Source of the DNA: Pseudobutyrivibrio xylanivorans
GTDB lineage: Bacteria > Bacillota > Clostridia > Lachnospirales > Lachnospiraceae
Assembly: GCF_008935055.1 (NCBI RefSeq)
Contig: NZ_CP043028.1
Span: 2,386,501 to 2,450,500 of the forward strand
Direction of reading: 5' to 3'
DNA length: 64,000 nucleotides
Shown: piece after piece, positions 480-45,554 of the stretch
How positions within the stretch are numbered: position 1 is the stretch's first letter
Layout: every line of letters starts with the position of its first letter
Made by a program: the position numbers and the translations under genes
Notes under the pieces: model-generated
What the model saw: the letters and a program-made list of their open reading frames with translations, nothing else
Databases searched by the model: none
Told to the model about the DNA's origin: nothing

Positions 480-501
480 GTAGGGAGTATATTGTGTGTA
501 T

Positions 502-806
502 GGGCAGTGCTAGAAGAATTTTTGCATGTGGTACTGCCTGGGTGGAGAGTTTTGGGCAGTACTAGAAGAGATTTTGCATATGGTACTGCCTGGGTGGAGA
601 GTTTTGGGCAGTACTAGAAGAATTTTTGCATGTGGTACTGCCTGGGTGAAGAGTTTTGGGCAGTACTAGAAGAATTTTTGCATGTGGTACTGCCTGGGTG
701 GAGAGTTTTGGGCAGTACTAGAAGAGATTTTGCATGTGGTACTGCCTTGGTGAAGAGTTTTGGGCAGTACTAGGAAGAAAAATGCATCTAGAACTGCCTG
801 AGAGAG
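502..806. repeat. 52-bp tandem hairpin array (array A1)
   Basis: Units begin at 502, 554, 606, 658, 710 and 762, an exact 52-base period, and the last unit is degenerate. Each unit opens with GGGCAGTAC and, about 20 bases on, has GTACTGCC, so every unit is a hairpin with an 8-9 bp stem. The spacer between hairpins (GGGTGGAGAGTTTT or close variants) is also conserved. The loop varies at a few positions only. No open reading frame runs through it. It sits directly behind a plus-strand terminator, as do the other hairpin arrays in this window. Confidence 0.95.
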
Positions 807-14781: not shown

Positions 14782-14915
14782 GTAGGATGTTCACAGTGCC
14801 CTGGCTTAGATTATGAGCTTTGTGTACAATAATAATTGAATTGTTAGAGCCTACCCTTGTGATATGTACCCTCTTTACTGGACAAAGTAAATGTCCTGTA
14901 AGGAGGGTTATTTTT

Positions 14916-15473
14916 ATGCGTTATAGTATGGAATTTATATTAGAGTGTATTGATTTGTATCGTTCTGGCAAGTGGCCTGAAACTCCAGAAGGCATAAAGA
15001 ATCCGCAAAATTTTCATAAAATGATAAGACGCTGGAGTCGCAGAGAAGAAGCTTTAGGTTCGGAAGCCTTTTGCAATAAGAAAAAACTGCGTACTCCTGA
15101 AGAAAAATACGCATTAGTTTCTCGTGTTATTGCAGGTGAGTCTATTCAATCTGTTTCTTTCGAGCAAGGAATGCATCAAGGGACCTTATATAAGTGGGTA
15201 CAAGATTACAAAACTCAGGGGTATAATGGATTAGTAAAAAACAAAGGAAGGCCTTCAAAGGATTATTCTATGAAAAAAAATACTAACCCACGCCCTCTTA
15301 CAGAGTCAGAATTAGAAGAACTTATCAGGCTTAGAGCTGAAAACGAATATTTAAAAGCAGAAAATGAAGTAATAAAAAAAAGGATTGCCTTGAGGCAAGA
15401 AAAGTGGGCTGCGCAACTCAAGGCGAAAAAGCAGCAATCATCAAAAACCTCAGAGAAGAAGGATTCCAATTAA
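14916..15473 (+). CDS. IS3-family transposase OrfA (helix-turn-helix subunit)
   Basis: 185 residues from the ATG at 14916, which follows AAGGAGGG. An N-terminal helix-turn-helix (LVSRVIAGESIQSVSFEQG, then TLYKWVQDY) would bind the IS ends. The C-terminus is a leucine-rich coiled coil (RLRAENEYLKAENEVIKK) that mediates multimer formation. A run of eight A at 15374-15381 followed by G is a good -1 slippage site for producing the OrfAB fusion. The frame upstream of 14916 is open but has no binding site and would start outside the IS. Confidence 0.9.
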   Translation: MRYSMEFILECIDLYRSGKWPETPEGIKNPQNFHKMIRRWSRREEALGSEAFCNKKKLRTPEEKYALVSRVIAGESIQSVSFEQGMHQGTLYKWVQDYKTQGYNGLVKNKGRPSKDYSMKKNTNPRPLTESELEELIRLRAENEYLKAENEVIKKRIALRQEKWAAQLKAKKQQSSKTSEKKDSN

Positions 15474-16291
15474 AACATCTTCTTAAAGCTTTTCACATGG
15501 CTAAATCAACATACTATTTTGAGATTAGCAAGAAAGATGTTGTTGCTGAACGCAATCAAGAAATACTTGAAGAAATTAAAAGTATTTTTGAATCTAACAA
15601 GCGTAGGTATGGTGTTAGACGTGTTCATCAGGAGTTGATAAATCGTGGGTATATAGTTAATCATAAGCGCGTTCAGCGTCTTATGCATGAAGCTGGATTA
15701 TTAGGGAAACGTCCTAAGGAAAAATATCATTCTTATAAGGGCGAAGTTGGAAAGATTGCTGATAACATAATAGATAGAAACTTCAGTACAACTGCGCCTT
15801 TGCAGAAATGGACAACAGATGTGTCCCAGTTTAATTTTACATGGGGAAAGTGTTACCTATCGCCAGTTCTAGATATGAATACGAATGAAATCATTTCATA
15901 TGACTTATCTAAAAGCCCTAATCTTGAGCAAATAGAAAGAATGTTAAATAAAGCATTTGATAAATTTCCATCAGTGGAAGGTCTTATATTTCATTCTGAT
16001 CAAGGATGGCAATATCAGCATGCTCTCTATAGAAACACTTTACAAGAGCATGGAATTATCCAATCCATGTCTCGAAAAGGTAATTGCTATGATAATTGCA
16101 TTATGGAAACTTTCTTTGGCAGATTGAAAAATGAAATGTACTATGGTTATGAGAAAGATTTTTCTTCTTATGAAGAATTCGCAAAAGCGATTGATGAATA
16201 TATAGATTATTATAATAACAAAAGAATTCAGGCAAAAACAAAATGGATGCCACCTGTACAATACAGGATAGCATCCATGTGTTCAGCCTAG
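15404..16291 (+). CDS. IS3-family transposase OrfB (DDE integrase), made by -1 frameshift
   Basis: The reading frame is open from the slippery A run near 15374 and in frame -1 to OrfA; an internal GTG at 15404 is the first start codon. The HTH_21 region (RRYGVRRVHQELINRGY) precedes the rve catalytic core. The three catalytic acids are visible: D in WTTDVSQF, D in FHSDQGWQY, and E in IMETFFGRLK. No inactivating change is seen, so the element may be mobile. Most product is probably the frameshifted OrfAB fusion. Confidence 0.92.
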   Translation: MGCATQGEKAAIIKNLREEGFQLKHLLKAFHMAKSTYYFEISKKDVVAERNQEILEEIKSIFESNKRRYGVRRVHQELINRGYIVNHKRVQRLMHEAGLLGKRPKEKYHSYKGEVGKIADNIIDRNFSTTAPLQKWTTDVSQFNFTWGKCYLSPVLDMNTNEIISYDLSKSPNLEQIERMLNKAFDKFPSVEGLIFHSDQGWQYQHALYRNTLQEHGIIQSMSRKGNCYDNCIMETFFGRLKNEMYYGYEKDFSSYEEFAKAIDEYIDYYNNKRIQAKTKWMPPVQYRIASMCSA

Positions 16292-16352
16292 TTCATAAAT
16301 ATGTGTCCAGGATTCTGGGTACATATCATTGTGGTGGGCTCTTTTTTCTGTG

Positions 16353-16767
16353 AAGGTATAATCATGGGCTGATATAGGAGGTGGTTATACCTTTTATAAT
16401 TTATGAGGGATTAATATGAAGGCAAAAAAGGTATAACTGGCTTGGGAATTTATGGAGGGTTATACCTTTTAGTGGGCAATGAGACATTATATTGAAGTCG
16501 ATAAGGTATAACTAGAGTGGAAAATTACTGGAGGTTATACCTTTTTGCGGGCAATGAGACATTATATTGAAGTCGATAAGGTATAACCAGAGTGAAAAAT
16601 TACTGGAGGTTATACCTTTTTGCGGGCTATGAGACATTATATTGAGGTCAAAAAGGTATAACCAGAGTGGAAATTTACGTGAGGTTATACCTTTTGGTGG
16701 ACAACAAGACATTATATTGAAATCAAAAAGGTATAACTAAGAGAAAAAATATAGGTGGTTATACCTT
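16353..16767. repeat. 75-bp tandem hairpin array (array A2), adjoining a nuclease gene
   Basis: Six units start at 16353, 16428, 16503, 16578, 16653 and 16728, an exact 75-base period. Each unit has AAGGTATAAC and about 20 bases later GTTATACCTT, forming a 10-bp stem. Spacers share GACATTATATTGAAGTC. The first unit is the most divergent. The last hairpin overlaps the 3' end of the minus-strand nuclease gene: its arm encodes the final DKKV and the TAA stop. A terminator facing the other way (now split by an IS) shields the array from plus-strand transcription. Array A4 at 36478 is a second copy of the same family. Confidence 0.95.
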
Positions 16768-17559
16768 TTTGTCCAGCAAGTAAGCTTCAATAGTTCTCTT
16801 AATAATATCTTCTGTAAGCGGTGAATTAATAGTCTCAAAGGTACATATCAGATTATGGCCTGGGACATAGCCTTTATTGATATAACTATTAAGTTTGTTC
16901 ATTGCATTGAATCGATATTCTGTATTGTCCATCATTCCAAAGTGTTCCCAGATTAATTCAATGTCTTCAGAAGCTTTATATATTGTAAAATCTGGGAAAT
17001 ATATAGTTCCATTAATATCGAGCCCACATTCATATTTGAATGGAATATTATAATCTGATAATCCACGAACTATAAGAGTTTCTGATTTAGATCTGACGGT
17101 GATTCCAACAGATGTTTTAAATCGAAGTGTTTCCTGGTGTTTATCATTATGTATATAAGGCTGTGATAGCCATTTCTGTTGTTTTATGTAATTGGGATTT
17201 AGCAAGGTTTGAAGAAGATTACTATAGCCTGGAACGTTATAGAGTAGATCTTTAGATGTGATTTTGGGAGTTCTATCTAATTTTAGTTTAATAGAAGCTA
17301 TCTCATTTTCGATTTCTTTTTTGCGAACCTTGTTAAATCGCTTCTTGGCAAGGGCGGTTGCTAATGCAATATTTTCTTTTTTGATGTAAGTTCTTTTTAC
17401 ATTTCCCTGGGTCTTTTCTATTTGAAAATATTTGAAACCATTTGAAGTTTTCACGGCATTAAGTGACCCATTAGGAGCTTTAGAAAGTTCCTTGGTAATC
17501 TTAGTTAGCTCAGAATTTAAAGAGGCAATTTTGTGCTCTAGTGATGAAGATTTGTTCAT
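16759..17559 (-). CDS. PD-(D/E)XK-like nuclease protein whose stop codon lies in the hairpin array
   Basis: 266 residues. The N-terminal 95 residues are a lysine-rich coiled coil (LEHKIASLNSELTKITKEL). The C-terminal domain has SKSE (E160), YE (E177), YFPDF (D190) and IWEHFG (E205), the pattern of a PD-(D/E)XK-type nuclease seen in many phage and helicase-linked proteins, although the usual final K is replaced. The ATG follows AAAGGA. Transcription runs straight into the 75-bp array, and the last four codons plus stop are made by the first array hairpin, so array and gene form one transcription unit. Catalytic activity and target are not known. Confidence 0.7.
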   Translation of the reverse strand: MNKSSSLEHKIASLNSELTKITKELSKAPNGSLNAVKTSNGFKYFQIEKTQGNVKRTYIKKENIALATALAKKRFNKVRKKEIENEIASIKLKLDRTPKITSKDLLYNVPGYSNLLQTLLNPNYIKQQKWLSQPYIHNDKHQETLRFKTSVGITVRSKSETLIVRGLSDYNIPFKYECGLDINGTIYFPDFTIYKASEDIELIWEHFGMMDNTEYRFNAMNKLNSYINKGYVPGHNLICTFETINSPLTEDIIKRTIEAYLLDKKV

Positions 17560-17757
17560 TAATATCCTTTCTAAATTAATAGTAAAATTCGGGGGTTATC
17601 ACTCGAATGAGCATTTGGAAAACAGTAGAAATATATAACAAAATTAACGCTTAATCAAGACCAAATAATAATATGTGTGGATTATTTTAATTTGGCCTTA
17701 GGTTCGGTATACTAAAAAGGGTATTATATTGTAGGTTAATTGATGGGGGATATAAAA

Positions 17758-19291: not shown

Positions 19292-20866
19292 TTAGGCAGC
19301 TTCTTGGAGACGCATCTTTTTATTGTGATATTTATATAAGTTATGACCTATTGAAACCAAAAGAACCTCAAGTTTTACGGATTCTATTCCTTTTCGGACT
19401 ATTCTTTTATACCAACGATCATTTTTTATGATTCCGAAAGTACCTTCCGCTTGAATGGATCTGTTCATTCTAAGGAGTGCTCCCTGGATGCTTTCAAGAT
19501 TATTTATAACCTCCTGATGCATAGCGGTCAGTTCTTCGTTTATTCTTACGGTTTTGTTTTTATCTGTTTTCTTACACTTCGATGCATAGGGACAACCACT
19601 GCAGTCTTCACACTGATAGACTTCTTCTTGCCGGCCATACTGGTTTCCTTTTACATGCTGCCTGTATAGAAAGTTGAAGCTCCTCCCATTAGGACAACGC
19701 ATTTTCCCATCATCACCGATCTCAAAATTAACAGCTCTGAATGGATCGTTGTGATATTTCTTATCGGTCGTCTCCTTTTTAAACATTGTGAACTTCATGT
19801 ACTTTTTCATGCCTTTTTGCTCGCAAAAGATATAATTATTGAACGAGCCATATCCAGCATCAGCCACAGGATATTTTGGATAAAAGCCATATGTTTCATA
19901 ATACTTATTCATCAACGGTATGAAGCAGTCCATGTCAGCTCTTTATTGATTAACATCAACAACTGCTATGTATTCATCAGCTACTCCAATCTGAACGTTG
20001 TATGCGGGAAGAAGCTGGTCGTTTCCCATGTAGTCGGTCTTTATTCTCATGAATGTAGCGGAAGGATCTGTCTTTGAATAGCTGTTCCTGTTTTCTCCAC
20101 AGATGCTGATTTTTGTGACATATTCATTGAGCTTTGTTGTGTACTCTACAAGCTTTTCGTACTGTCTCTGCTGGACGGTTTTCCTATGTCCTTTTCCTGA
20201 AACAAAAGTTGAAGTATCAAGCTTCCATATCTCAGAAAACCGTTCTGTTATCTGGCGCATATATTCAGGCATGTACTCTGTATTAGTCTCAATCTTGATT
20301 CCGCTCCACTGAAGATCGCTGTTGATTTCTTGCAGTAATTTAGTAATCTTTTCAAAAAGACGGTAACGGGATTTTTCCGTGGCCTTCTTCCATACCCAAG
20401 TATATTTGTTAGCATTAGCTTCAAACTTCGAACCATCAATATAAAGATGATTCAGGTCAACTTTATGCCTGCTGAATATTTCCTGATTAATATCATTGAA
20501 AATATCCTCTATTGAATCCTTTAACACATCGTTTATGAAATAGCTGAAGGTTCTGTAAGAAGGAGTTTCCCTGTCCATAAGATACATAAATCGAATGTTA
20601 ACCCTACAGTTTTCTTGAAGTCCTCTTAGTGAAATATATCCTTCACTCATAAAACCGAATAGTACGGTTTTCAACATTTTGACTGGATTATATCTGATTC
20701 TGCCAAGCTTATGCTCTGGCACATTTTTCAGATACTTCTCAAGATTCATACCTCCCACGAGTTCGTCAAAAGTAAAAACCGGATCACAGATATCCAAGCA
20801 ATCTGAAATAAAAAATGGTAAAACGCCCTGATTTAGAGTATTATAAGAATTGGTTTGATTGATCAT
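19292..20866 (-). pseudogene. IS1182-family DDE transposase with one in-frame nonsense codon
   Basis: The 5' part of 307 residues begins MINQTNSYNTLNQG and ends in VVDVNQ followed by TAA at 19943-19945. The same frame resumes at once as RADMDCFIPLMNKYYE and continues 213 residues to the end near 19292. The TAA probably arose from CAA, since DVxQxRADMDCF is the expected run. Conserved features are DGSKFEANANKYTW, YNVQIGVAD, DAGYGS, a Cys cluster (CEDCSGCPYASKC) and ERTFG-like AEGTFGIIKND. Apart from the stop the gene is intact. Confidence 0.9.
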
Positions 20867-36477: not shown

Positions 36478-36818
36478 CAGGTATAATCTTGGGCTGATAT
36501 GGGAGGTGGTTATACCTTTTATAATATATGAGGAGATTAATATGAAGCCAAAAAGGTATAACTGGCTTGGAAATTTATGTCAGGTTATACCTTTTGGTGG
36601 GCATTGAGACATTATATTGAAGTCAAAAAGGTATAACTAGCGAGGGAAATTATGGAAGGTTATACCCTTTTAGTGGGCATTGAGACATTATATTGAAGTC
36701 AAAAAGGTATAACTAGCGAGGGAAATTATAGAAGGTTATACCTTTTAGTGAGCTATGGAACATTATATTGAATCTAAAAAGGTATAACTAAATGCAATAA
36801 TTATAGATGGTTATACCT
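36478..36818. repeat. 75-bp tandem hairpin array (array A4), second copy
   Basis: Five units start at 36478, 36553, 36628, 36704 and 36779 (75-76 base period). Stems are AAGGTATAAC/GTTATACCTT as in array A2, and the first two units and the preceding terminator match A2 closely. No nuclease gene follows. The 25 bases after the last unit weakly resemble the 3' end of the nuclease gene at A2, which hints at a deletion. Confidence 0.93.
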
Positions 36819-37030
36819 ATTTATTCAGCAATTAGAGCCTGTGAAATTTTTACTGTAAATATGGAACTTCTATGATAATTTAGATTTATGATGGATGTAG
36901 TTGGATTGATTGGTTACAATGGAAGAAAACGAGGATGTTGATTAATTAAAGAGACTTTACATAGGACAGTTACTTCGAAAGAGATAGCTGTTCTTTTAGT
37001 ACCTCAAATTAAAAATTCACAATTAAAGTA
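36819..37030. other. Intergenic stretch without recognised features
   Basis: AT-rich spacer between array A4 and the MerR-type promoter. No open frame with a start and binding site was seen on either strand. Confidence 0.5.
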
Positions 37031-43900: not shown

Positions 43901-45554
43901 TGGCTGGTGGTTCCTTGAAGGCAAAACACCTGCCGATGCCAAGGTACTTACATATCTCAACGCTGATGGCACAGCCTATATGTCTACTAAAAACGAAGGT
44001 CTCGAGATGAAGAAGGACTACGTTCATCCAGGCAAGGATAAGCCAGCTATGTATCAGTGGGTTGCTTATGAGGATGGAAAAATCGATATCATTGCTGAAT
44101 ATGTTAAGTTTGGTCAGAACGATTCAAATCCAAATTATCCTGATGGCGTAAAGGTTAGCGTTTATAAGAATAATGACATTTTGTTAGAGCAGGATGTTGA
44201 GGCATTTAGAGGCGATGGCAACGACAACAAGCTTGAAATCATGCTTACAAAGCTTGACGTTGTACGAGGTGACAAGATTTCATTTGTAATCGATGCTAAA
44301 ACAAATAATGCATGGGATGCAGGAAGACTTTCAGCTAGCATTTATGCAGCAAAGGAAAAGACACCAGAGGAAGAAGCTAGAGAGAACAACACAAATCTTA
44401 GCAGCGCATTCGGCGAGCAGGGTTCTGACGGCTGGTACTACGGCATGTGCGACTGGGACGGTAAGAACTTTGAAAGACTTACCTATGATGCTGAGATGGG
44501 CAGATACTTTAATAATGGCAAGCCAGAGCTTAAGGCTGACTTTGTAGAGCCAGGTAATGGCAGAAATGCAGCATACCAGTGGGTTGTTGCAAAGACTGGC
44601 AGAATCAACATCAAGGGAAGCTACACTAAGTTTGCAAACAATGCAGATCCAGCAGCAAACGGCGTATGCATGCGAATCTTCATCAACGGTGAAGAAAAGA
44701 AGTGGATTGGTGGAGATATCCAGGGCAATTTTGCAGCAGATATTGTAAAGGCAATTGATGAGGCATATCTTGTTCACGAAGGTGATGTGGTAATGTTTGC
44801 TATCGATTCAGATGGCAATGACAGCTACGACGGCGGAAAGCTTGATATTACAATCAAGGATGCTGACGAAGAAGAGCCAGAAGAGCTAGAAGAGCCAGAA
44901 GAGCCTGTAGTAGATGAAGACAGAACCAACAAGACAACATTGGCAGAAGGCTTTGGCGCTCAGGGTGAAAACGGCTGGTTCTACGGTACATGTGATTGGG
45001 ATGGCAAGAATTTTGAAAAGCTTCCATACGATGCCGAGAACAATAGATACTTTAATGGAGGCAAGCCAGAGCTTAAGTCAGATTTTGTAGAGCCAGGTAA
45101 TGGCAGAAATGCTGCTTATAAATGGGTAGTTGCAGAAGATGGCCGCATCCGAGTTCAGGGAAGCTACACTAAGTTTGCCAATAGCGCAGACCCAAATGCA
45201 AACGGAACCTGCATGAGAATCTTCTTAAACGGAGTTGAAAAGAAGTGGCTTGGCGGTACAACACAGGGCAACTTCTCGGATGATAAAACAGTCACATTCG
45301 ACGAGCACTATGAAGTAAAGAAGAACGACGAAATCACCTTCGCCATCGACCCAGATGGAAACGACGCCTGGGACGGCGGTAGATTAGAGGTTAACATCTC
45401 GGATGAGTCTGAGGATGAAGATGATGACGATGCTTCTGATGATAGCGATTCTGAGGATGAAGATGATGCTTCTGATGATAGCGATTCTGAGGATGACAAG
45501 TCAGAGGATGCAGAGACTGAGGAAGCTGAAGAGGATTCTAAGGAAACTGAATAG
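40950..45554 (+). CDS. Large exported protein with eight tandem unrecognised modules
   Basis: 1534 residues. The N-terminus (two lysines, then VVVVAAAGLAGTMALG) is a signal peptide or membrane anchor. From about residue 73 there are eight repeats of 150-180 residues. Each opens with DFGEQG-x-NGW and has a middle xDFVxPG and A-x-x-x-W, a loop NPxWPDGVxVxVYKND, an L-D-V-x-x-GD strand and a closing NNAYDGG. Repeats 7 and 8 form a separate subtype, close to each other, with DWDGKNFE and ADPxANG in place of NPxWPDG. The last 47 residues are almost all D, E and S. It follows the GH32 gene by 19 bases behind AGGAGGG. The aromatic, Asp/Asn-rich beta modules look carbohydrate-binding; no catalytic domain or sortase motif is visible. 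Confidence 0.8.
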   Translation: MFKKLLGASLKAKLLATGGVVVVAAAGLAGTMALGSGNDEITIKDEIVALAGGWPQSFMADDYVEPEFVDDKDRTNNAFNVADFGEQGNNGWFYRYGTAKNPAASRRMEKYDGEKYFQVGKTGMEIKSNFIHTAEGTAPILEWRAAKKGDINVSLTYVKNVNMDKNPSYPDGVTLYVYKGDEAIGRYEVDVKTDGETVVEKELSNLSVDELESLYFIVDPNMNNAYDGGSLYVAINDVDAKRPSAINDVARKDNNANSIEDFGAQGQNGWTYRFGKSGKDSKLVSTDNNGEFMNVTSPNLVLSHYFIHPAINDNAILAWKPAVDGAVEVRGKYKKFEQNDGNPDWPDGVIVSVYKNDEKLFSKKVAAPRKGENEISFREKHLDVLTTDELYFVVDAGGNSSYDGGCFDIDIVDRTGAKTEADVAIDETETRQNFADTKYDFGEQGKNGWFYQDGFASEATNSYNMMNFEKEEERYFDSSYLEIKRDFVNPGKGKSAVIKWKVAQDGKVKVDAAYTKFKNEDKNPSWPDGTIVTIFHNDTPLVTEDFAPDRLREITKRLDVASVDVKKGDFITMVVDPKSNNAYDAGKYEFSIKGITPMVGKTEKDVTYFGGQRTNNASTQEDFGNQGVNGYCYQSGYYLNPNYAVNLETYKKNDKYTTIDGVEIKRDYIMPGNKGRSAIVKWVANEEGSVDVLADYTKHKNEDKNPDWPDGVDVYIFKNDKQIKKESFAPVVGREVTKDLSVNGLMVKPGDCISLLVDGKDNTAYDGGNFKFVVEDAELKTIPMVNESGKNIANLALDFGAQGSNGWYYCEGRGIEKFEILQKKTEDGSGYISRKQKNLEIKKDFVQPRLNANAMYKWVAAANGQIDITGDYTKFGNEDPNMDWPDGTRIGVYINRHNIIDETVTCPRGEDKQNTKAINIKKLDVHAGDVITFEVTCNKNNAWDGGRFNIDIADSNEIKVVVGDEERTNNTVLGALTSMAQGTDGWWFLEGKTPADAKVLTYLNADGTAYMSTKNEGLEMKKDYVHPGKDKPAMYQWVAYEDGKIDIIAEYVKFGQNDSNPNYPDGVKVSVYKNNDILLEQDVEAFRGDGNDNKLEIMLTKLDVVRGDKISFVIDAKTNNAWDAGRLSASIYAAKEKTPEEEARENNTNLSSAFGEQGSDGWYYGMCDWDGKNFERLTYDAEMGRYFNNGKPELKADFVEPGNGRNAAYQWVVAKTGRINIKGSYTKFANNADPAANGVCMRIFINGEEKKWIGGDIQGNFAADIVKAIDEAYLVHEGDVVMFAIDSDGNDSYDGGKLDITIKDADEEEPEELEEPEEPVVDEDRTNKTTLAEGFGAQGENGWFYGTCDWDGKNFEKLPYDAENNRYFNGGKPELKSDFVEPGNGRNAAYKWVVAEDGRIRVQGSYTKFANSADPNANGTCMRIFLNGVEKKWLGGTTQGNFSDDKTVTFDEHYEVKKNDEITFAIDPDGNDAWDGGRLEVNISDESEDEDDDDASDDSDSEDEDDASDDSDSEDDKSEDAETEEAEEDSKETE

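Follow-up and report, generated by a model that had tools for sequence, protein, structure and literature searches.

Within a window of 64,000 nucleotides from Pseudobutyrivibrio xylanivorans (the whole stretch analysed, G000:C1:2386501-2450500 of a 3.58 Mb genome) lies a gene for a predicted PD-(D/E)XK-like nuclease that ends inside the first hairpin of an array of palindromic repeats, here called A2. Comparison of its relatives across the genus shows, at the level of sequence, that each nuclease type is tied to one repeat type, that the two are inherited and diversify together, and that there is one gene copy per nuclease type. We consider it fairly probable that a sessile nuclease recognises its own palindrome and spreads arrays of it in trans, in the manner of REPINs (doublets of repetitive extragenic palindromes, REPs, that form hairpins) and RAYTs (REP-associated tyrosine transposases) but with an unrelated enzyme.

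Nuclease genes and their palindromic repeats

On the gene strand the coding sequence ends ...GAC AAA AAG GTA TAA CC, and the arm AAAAAGGTATAAC provides the codons K-K-V and the stop (16759-16761); a preliminary description of this DNA had placed the end of the gene inside the first A2 hairpin, and the position of the stop codon within the arm confirms it. The A2 unit consists of AAGGTATAAC, 21 bp (20 bp once) and GTTATACCTT, and successive units start 74, 75, 75, 75 and 75 bp apart (Tandem Repeats Finder gives a period of 75, 4.7 copies and a score of 454). Six hairpins had been described as perfectly spaced; the number six holds and the perfect spacing does not, since one step is 74 bp. The sixth unit, on the 16353 side, is a conserved but distinct and imperfect terminal unit (...ATATCAGCCCAWGATTATACCTT). 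The arm pattern AAGGTATAACN{10,35}GTTATACCTT has 7 exact matches in the 3.58 Mb genome, all within two arrays, and the reversed-pattern control has none.

The same genome holds seven copies of the nuclease gene, one of them broken and detected as two pieces, and all seven have a palindromic repeat of their own within the adjacent kilobase (words AAGGTATAAC, TATTGATAAA, GGTACCAC, ACTACGTG, TTTACTATC, GGCAGTAC and AAACACTGTA). The nuclease is present in 28 of 29 genomes of the genus, from which 136 distinct copies were taken, a subset of those that exist and mostly from draft genomes; a palindromic 8-mer that recurs four times or more lies beside the gene in 123/136. Loci with full flanks carried a repeat in 118 of 126 cases, with at least six copies in 85, compared to 7 of 42 control loci of the genus, none with more than 4 copies, although some of these controls (e.g. 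L206, L208 and L213) had been picked through array matches and not through the control gene. The preliminary description would have put the link down to chance had homologues lacked adjacent arrays; this comparison favours the link, and the view of gene and array as a real unit is borne out across the genus. In the wider sample, the best 80 of 414 stretches that matched the nuclease, at least eight inverted 9-mer pairs were found in 39/79 downstream flanks, 22/80 upstream flanks and 9/304 control windows. Locus L049 shows a strong cluster of inverted repeats (TTGGGTAA) on the upstream side of its nuclease gene; counts rise to 8 in other windows of L049 that lie apart from the gene.

The whole collection comprises 188 distinct proteins; repeat words were found for 163 of them and fall into 111 word groups by crude clustering. 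Of these 163 loci, 85 have their repeats mainly upstream of the gene, 35 have them mainly downstream and 43 have them on both sides; a word overlies the stop codon in 7 (six of them in one ortholog group). The expectation that hairpins always stand at the 3' end of the gene, or that overlap with the stop codon is essential, is not upheld; because repeats lie on either side, the overlap is a peculiarity of one subfamily.

Sharing of a repeat word becomes more frequent as protein identity grows: it occurs in 5/8407 pairs below 30% identity, 18/5521 at 30-40%, 34/1583 at 40-50%, 63/569 at 50-60%, 38/112 at 60-70%, 32/56 at 70-85% and 40/42 above 85%. Exact AAGGTATAAC hairpins occur in 6 of the 29 genomes (7, 2, 24, 3, 10 and 2 matches; control 0 in all), and these are exactly the six whose best nuclease match has an E value of 6.3e-93 or better (6/6 vs 0/23). 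A second word, GGCAGTAC, is found in the P. xylanivorans genome beside a nuclease gene at 870 kb and in three arrays, at 1323, 1327 and 2387 kb, of which the third corresponds to window positions 501-797. In G026 it forms a hairpin beside a nuclease copy on contig C45, and contig C35 bears an array of it; no exact GGCAGTAC match occurs in G001, where the word beside one nuclease (L311) is a related one. Exact hairpins of a third, TTTACCACTG, are present in 8 genomes, a nuclease with an adjoining half-site in 11 (among the fetched copies), and both in 6. Among the 136 copies, none of the 366 within-genome pairs exceeds 70% identity (the maximum is 63%); between genomes, 104 of 8814 pairs do.

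Arrays away from the gene

Two arrays in the window have no nuclease gene beside them (Table 1). The first and terminal units of one, A3, are the same as those of A2, and the cognate of the array at 501-797 is a paralogous nuclease, G000:C1:870599-871381, 1.5 Mb off. On visual inspection, the GGCAGTAC arrays at 1323 and 1327 kb resemble each other at either end. Arrays of AAGGTATAAC occupy nine places in G008, which has one close nuclease gene, four in G024 and two in G000. We inspected all 12 orphan AAGGTATAAC arrays found by the exact pattern, which degenerate arrays would escape: the terminal unit is kept in eight of them (all except L161, L164, L167 and L169), and in three (L159, L160 and L168) the array is preceded by 60-67 bp of the nuclease 3' end, including its last codons, which in L168 is joined to up to 39 bp of the 5' part of the gene-bearing unit. 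Because they keep these remnants of the gene, the three are internal-deletion derivatives of the gene-bearing unit. Recurrent unit ends are seen at many sites away from the nuclease gene.

Occupied and unoccupied sites could be compared in part. At the site of L162, G006 lacks 726 bp of that locus and has 25 bp in their place; nearby, a TTTACCACTG array that G006, G008 and G027 possess is missing at the corresponding position in G011 and G024. Array-free junctions in G028 and G004 (L203 and L334) hold a short palindrome, AACAAATTCCAATTTGT, of which G014 has an imperfect form; AACAAATTCCAATTTGT may be an insertion target. Such partial empty sites are all of arrays; none was found for the gene-bearing unit.

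The TTTACCACTG...CAGTGGTAAA array (L162 1676-1876; also L175, L173, L178 and L179) has a dyad length of 41 bp, equal to that of the window hairpin. A left-end sequence of ~80 bp (GATTTGTTAATTTAACTG..., L162 ~1923-2015) is dispersed in many genomes of the genus without a AAGGTATAAC array and is perhaps a separate small element.

The nuclease protein, its distribution and the window

The predicted fold is PD-(D/E)XK-like, and so are the residues that are invariant in 68 aligned proteins (RSKSE, E177, PD190 and E205-H206, putatively catalytic); the gene is under purifying selection. The window protein matched no Pfam family at E 0.001 (a single chance-level match appeared up to E 10) and, by sequence search, no solved structure at E 1. 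Matches to its N-terminal half are mostly prefoldin-like and other coiled coils, with no named DNA-binding fold among them; that this half is AP2-like or integrase-arm-like would be a guess. Homology to the PADLOC candidate PDC-S68 is confined to the nuclease domain, which aligns at the C-terminal end of that model (E 5e-24 for the window protein; positions 1090-1218 of 1221, ~120 residues).

The nuclease family belongs to bacteria of the gut and rumen. A phylum-wide draw of 398 genomes gave 16 that match the nuclease profile: five matches are nearly full-length, all in the window's own family (Lachnospiraceae), and eleven cover the nuclease part only, mostly in long open reading frames (ORFs). 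Among the best 80 of the 414 stretches the four closest loci are from Pseudobutyrivibrio and most of the others from Lachnospiraceae or genera taken as such, with one from a Treponema metagenome-assembled genome (L067), which also has repeat words. Carriage by phages or plasmids was considered and rejected: no relative was confirmed in viral contigs searched with one peptide pattern, and the matches on plasmids were four AAA ATPases that covered only 41-56% of the query.

Table 1. Coordinates of the nuclease gene, its arrays and their flanks in the window
Feature	Position	Strand	Description
Orphan array	501..797		GGCAGTAC...GTACTGCC, 52-bp period; no adjacent nuclease gene
Terminal-unit flank	16292..16352		Hairpin remnant and T-run, apparently broken by the IS3-type element at 14820-16291
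Array A2	16353..16770		Six palindromic units, 75 bp; arms AAGGTATAAC/GTTATACCTT, 20-21-bp spacer
Nuclease gene	16759..17559	-	266 residues, PD-(D/E)XK-like; basic coiled-coil/beta N-terminal half
Conserved 5' part of gene-bearing unit	17560..17720	-	
Array A3	36478..36820		Orphan; five units including the terminal unit; no adjacent nuclease gene

On the 5' side of the gene-bearing unit the homology of relatives stops near GTATAC (~17710). On its other side the relative L008 has a GAACCC...GGGTTC hairpin followed by a T-run at the place of the window flank, and the A2 terminal unit of the window is adjoined by an insertion element with a helix-turn-helix ORF and a transposase ORF (15404-16291; Pfam rve and HTH_21), which we take to be of the IS3 family; judged against the L008 sequence, its insertion appears to have replaced one arm of this hairpin. 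The terminator that had been proposed on the far side of A2 was not detected in a scan of the window, whose sole terminator-like site is at 17159, with none near 16340; the scan gave 8 promoter-like sites against 7.7 expected and 1 terminator-like site against 0.7 expected, and is uninformative. Elsewhere in the window, two adjacent minus-strand ORFs at 19292-20866 look by eye like halves of one transposase gene, and tandem repeats of 9, 18 and 36 bp at 44870-45496, rich in GAT and GAA codons, are probably a low-complexity acidic protein region.

Mechanism, rival explanations and known systems

How would such a nuclease act on its repeat? Half-site spacing is constant within loci (on average 85% of spacings are modal), and one-sided arm changes outnumber compensatory ones, 392 pairs to 18. 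Mismatches on the gene-sense strand have G-T:A-C ratios of 46:40 downstream and 67:78 upstream, without wobble bias, and Rfam gave three weak matches, all far below gathering scores. The constant spacing, the basic N-terminus, the uncompensated changes and the lack of wobble bias lead us to infer binding to a dyad in double-stranded DNA: the protein would dimerise through its coiled-coil N-terminal half, the dimer would bind the dyad, and the PD-(D/E)XK domain would cut DNA. In this way arrays would come to be copied in trans into further intergenic sites, and might also expand in place, with the gene itself no longer moving, as with RAYT transposases. Mobilisation of the array by the nuclease is thereby the inference we favour from the options named in the preliminary description; another of them, that the array RNA is processed or acts as a guide, finds no support in wobble asymmetry, compensatory change or Rfam and was dropped. 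A helical phasing of the half-sites was also dropped, since spacings, which peak at 31 and 41-42, are common at 25-29 too and their values vary with the word chosen.

Several observations weigh against spread in trans by a cognate nuclease. No clean empty site with a target duplication was found among L162, L163 and A3, where comparisons are partial only: L163 and A3 could be compared at one junction each, and the gap in G006 opposite L162 holds 25 other bp. Outer flanks are homologous in 58 of the 85 word-sharing pairs at 55-85% identity, so that much of the co-inheritance in this range is vertical descent of the locus, and the contrast of 6/6 with 0/23 ignores kinship, as the six genomes may be close kin. 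Single GGCAGTAC matches occur in G009 and G010, which have no assigned nuclease; G008 has TTTACCACTG hairpins and no matching nuclease among the 7 of its 9 matches examined, and G018 has them with a 61% relative bearing another word as its best nuclease. No repeat word was found in 27/208 loci, some with short flanks. Finally, identical copies may be merged in draft assemblies, so that nucleases present more than once would go unnoticed, and the fetched copies are a subset.

The repeats could instead be operators of a DNA-binding (auto)regulator, in which case recombination would have produced the scattered arrays and a regulatory function would have preserved them. Their position beside the gene, more often upstream than downstream, and the basic N-terminal half agree with this, but the putative catalytic residues are invariant, repeats also lie downstream, and operators need neither the ends that orphan arrays keep nor the gene remnants that some of them hold; we regard it as unlikely. 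We rate just as low a role in defence or self/non-self distinction, in which the nuclease would attack foreign DNA and the arrays would be decoys or self marks that restrain it. The homologous domain of PDC-S68 and the several divergent nuclease copies per genome speak for such a role; however, the PDC-S68 models describe a long protein (>1200 residues against 266) whose long remainder is unmatched, and decoys need neither spread to many sites nor gene remnants.

It is more doubtful still that the arrays are independent miniature inverted-repeat transposable elements (MITEs) moved by another transposase, with the nuclease gene merely inside one. In its favour, the dispersed left-end sequence occurs without the AAGGTATAAC array, and no transposase family matched the nuclease protein. 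The exact co-occurrence of AAGGTATAAC hairpins with the close nuclease, and the pairing of motifs over many repeat types, would on the other hand need a cause. MITEs with an autonomous partner are a separate comparison: the three internal-deletion derivatives among the 12 orphan arrays are like them, and the multi-unit palindromic arrays, the lack of a transposase match and the lack of established terminal inverted repeats or target duplications are unlike them. Of the features of classical insertion sequences and MITEs, recurrent ends were seen. Least probable, and in our judgement very much so, is an array transcribed along with the gene, its hairpin RNAs serving to control, guide or inactivate the nuclease in the manner of type III toxin-antitoxin systems, where structured RNA repeats upstream of a toxin are co-transcribed with it: tandem structured repeats do adjoin a nuclease, and in the window directly follow its stop codon, but across the loci they lie on either side of the gene and more often upstream than downstream, and neither the mismatches, the arm changes nor Rfam point to RNA.

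Spread in trans by a sessile nuclease resembles REPIN/RAYT most closely. RAYTs are distinctive single-copy genes that lie beside their own REPIN cluster; their repeats occur as inverted pairs, in tandem clusters and as dispersed units that are not autonomous, and co-diversify with the RAYT (PMC3116915, PMC8049555). Here, a cognate palindromic repeat likewise flanks the enzyme gene (118/126 full-flank loci), repeats are dispersed in trans as inverted pairs, and the enzyme is distinctive and single-copy in each genome (0/366, in drafts and among fetched copies). RAYTs are IS200-like tyrosine transposases, whereas the family studied here has a PD-(D/E)XK-like nuclease whose N-terminus is a predicted coiled coil, and the arrays here are regular and tandem (periods of 52 and 75 bp in the window). 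The early comparison with REP/REPIN logic under a different nuclease fold is borne out; the system works like REPIN/RAYT but is no member of it, because the enzyme is not the tyrosine transposase that defines that class. It also appears to differ from the EDxHD homing endonuclease I-Bth0305I and Vsr-like enzymes, in that no intron or intein host was seen, repeats are dispersed at non-allelic sites, and a sequence search with the window protein found no relative among solved structures at E 1.

Titles and abstract openings found by searches of the open PMC library (subscription papers and preprints aside) describe no such nuclease-repeat pair. The enzyme is unrelated to RAYT; the logic alone is that of REPIN/RAYT. 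The balance tips, if only slightly, towards a further class of palindromic DNA that replicates through the action of an enzyme and evolved independently of RAYT, with many protein-palindrome pairs, several per genome, whose arrays spread in trans while the gene stays fixed. The pairs form a large natural set of proteins and palindromes that could reveal a code of DNA recognition. If this reading is true, the REPIN/RAYT mode of existence, in which a fixed enzyme gene maintains many palindromes, has evolved two or more times from enzymes that are not related, and why cells keep such pairs becomes directly testable by comparison; it would also account for intergenic hairpin arrays in the genomes of Lachnospiraceae.
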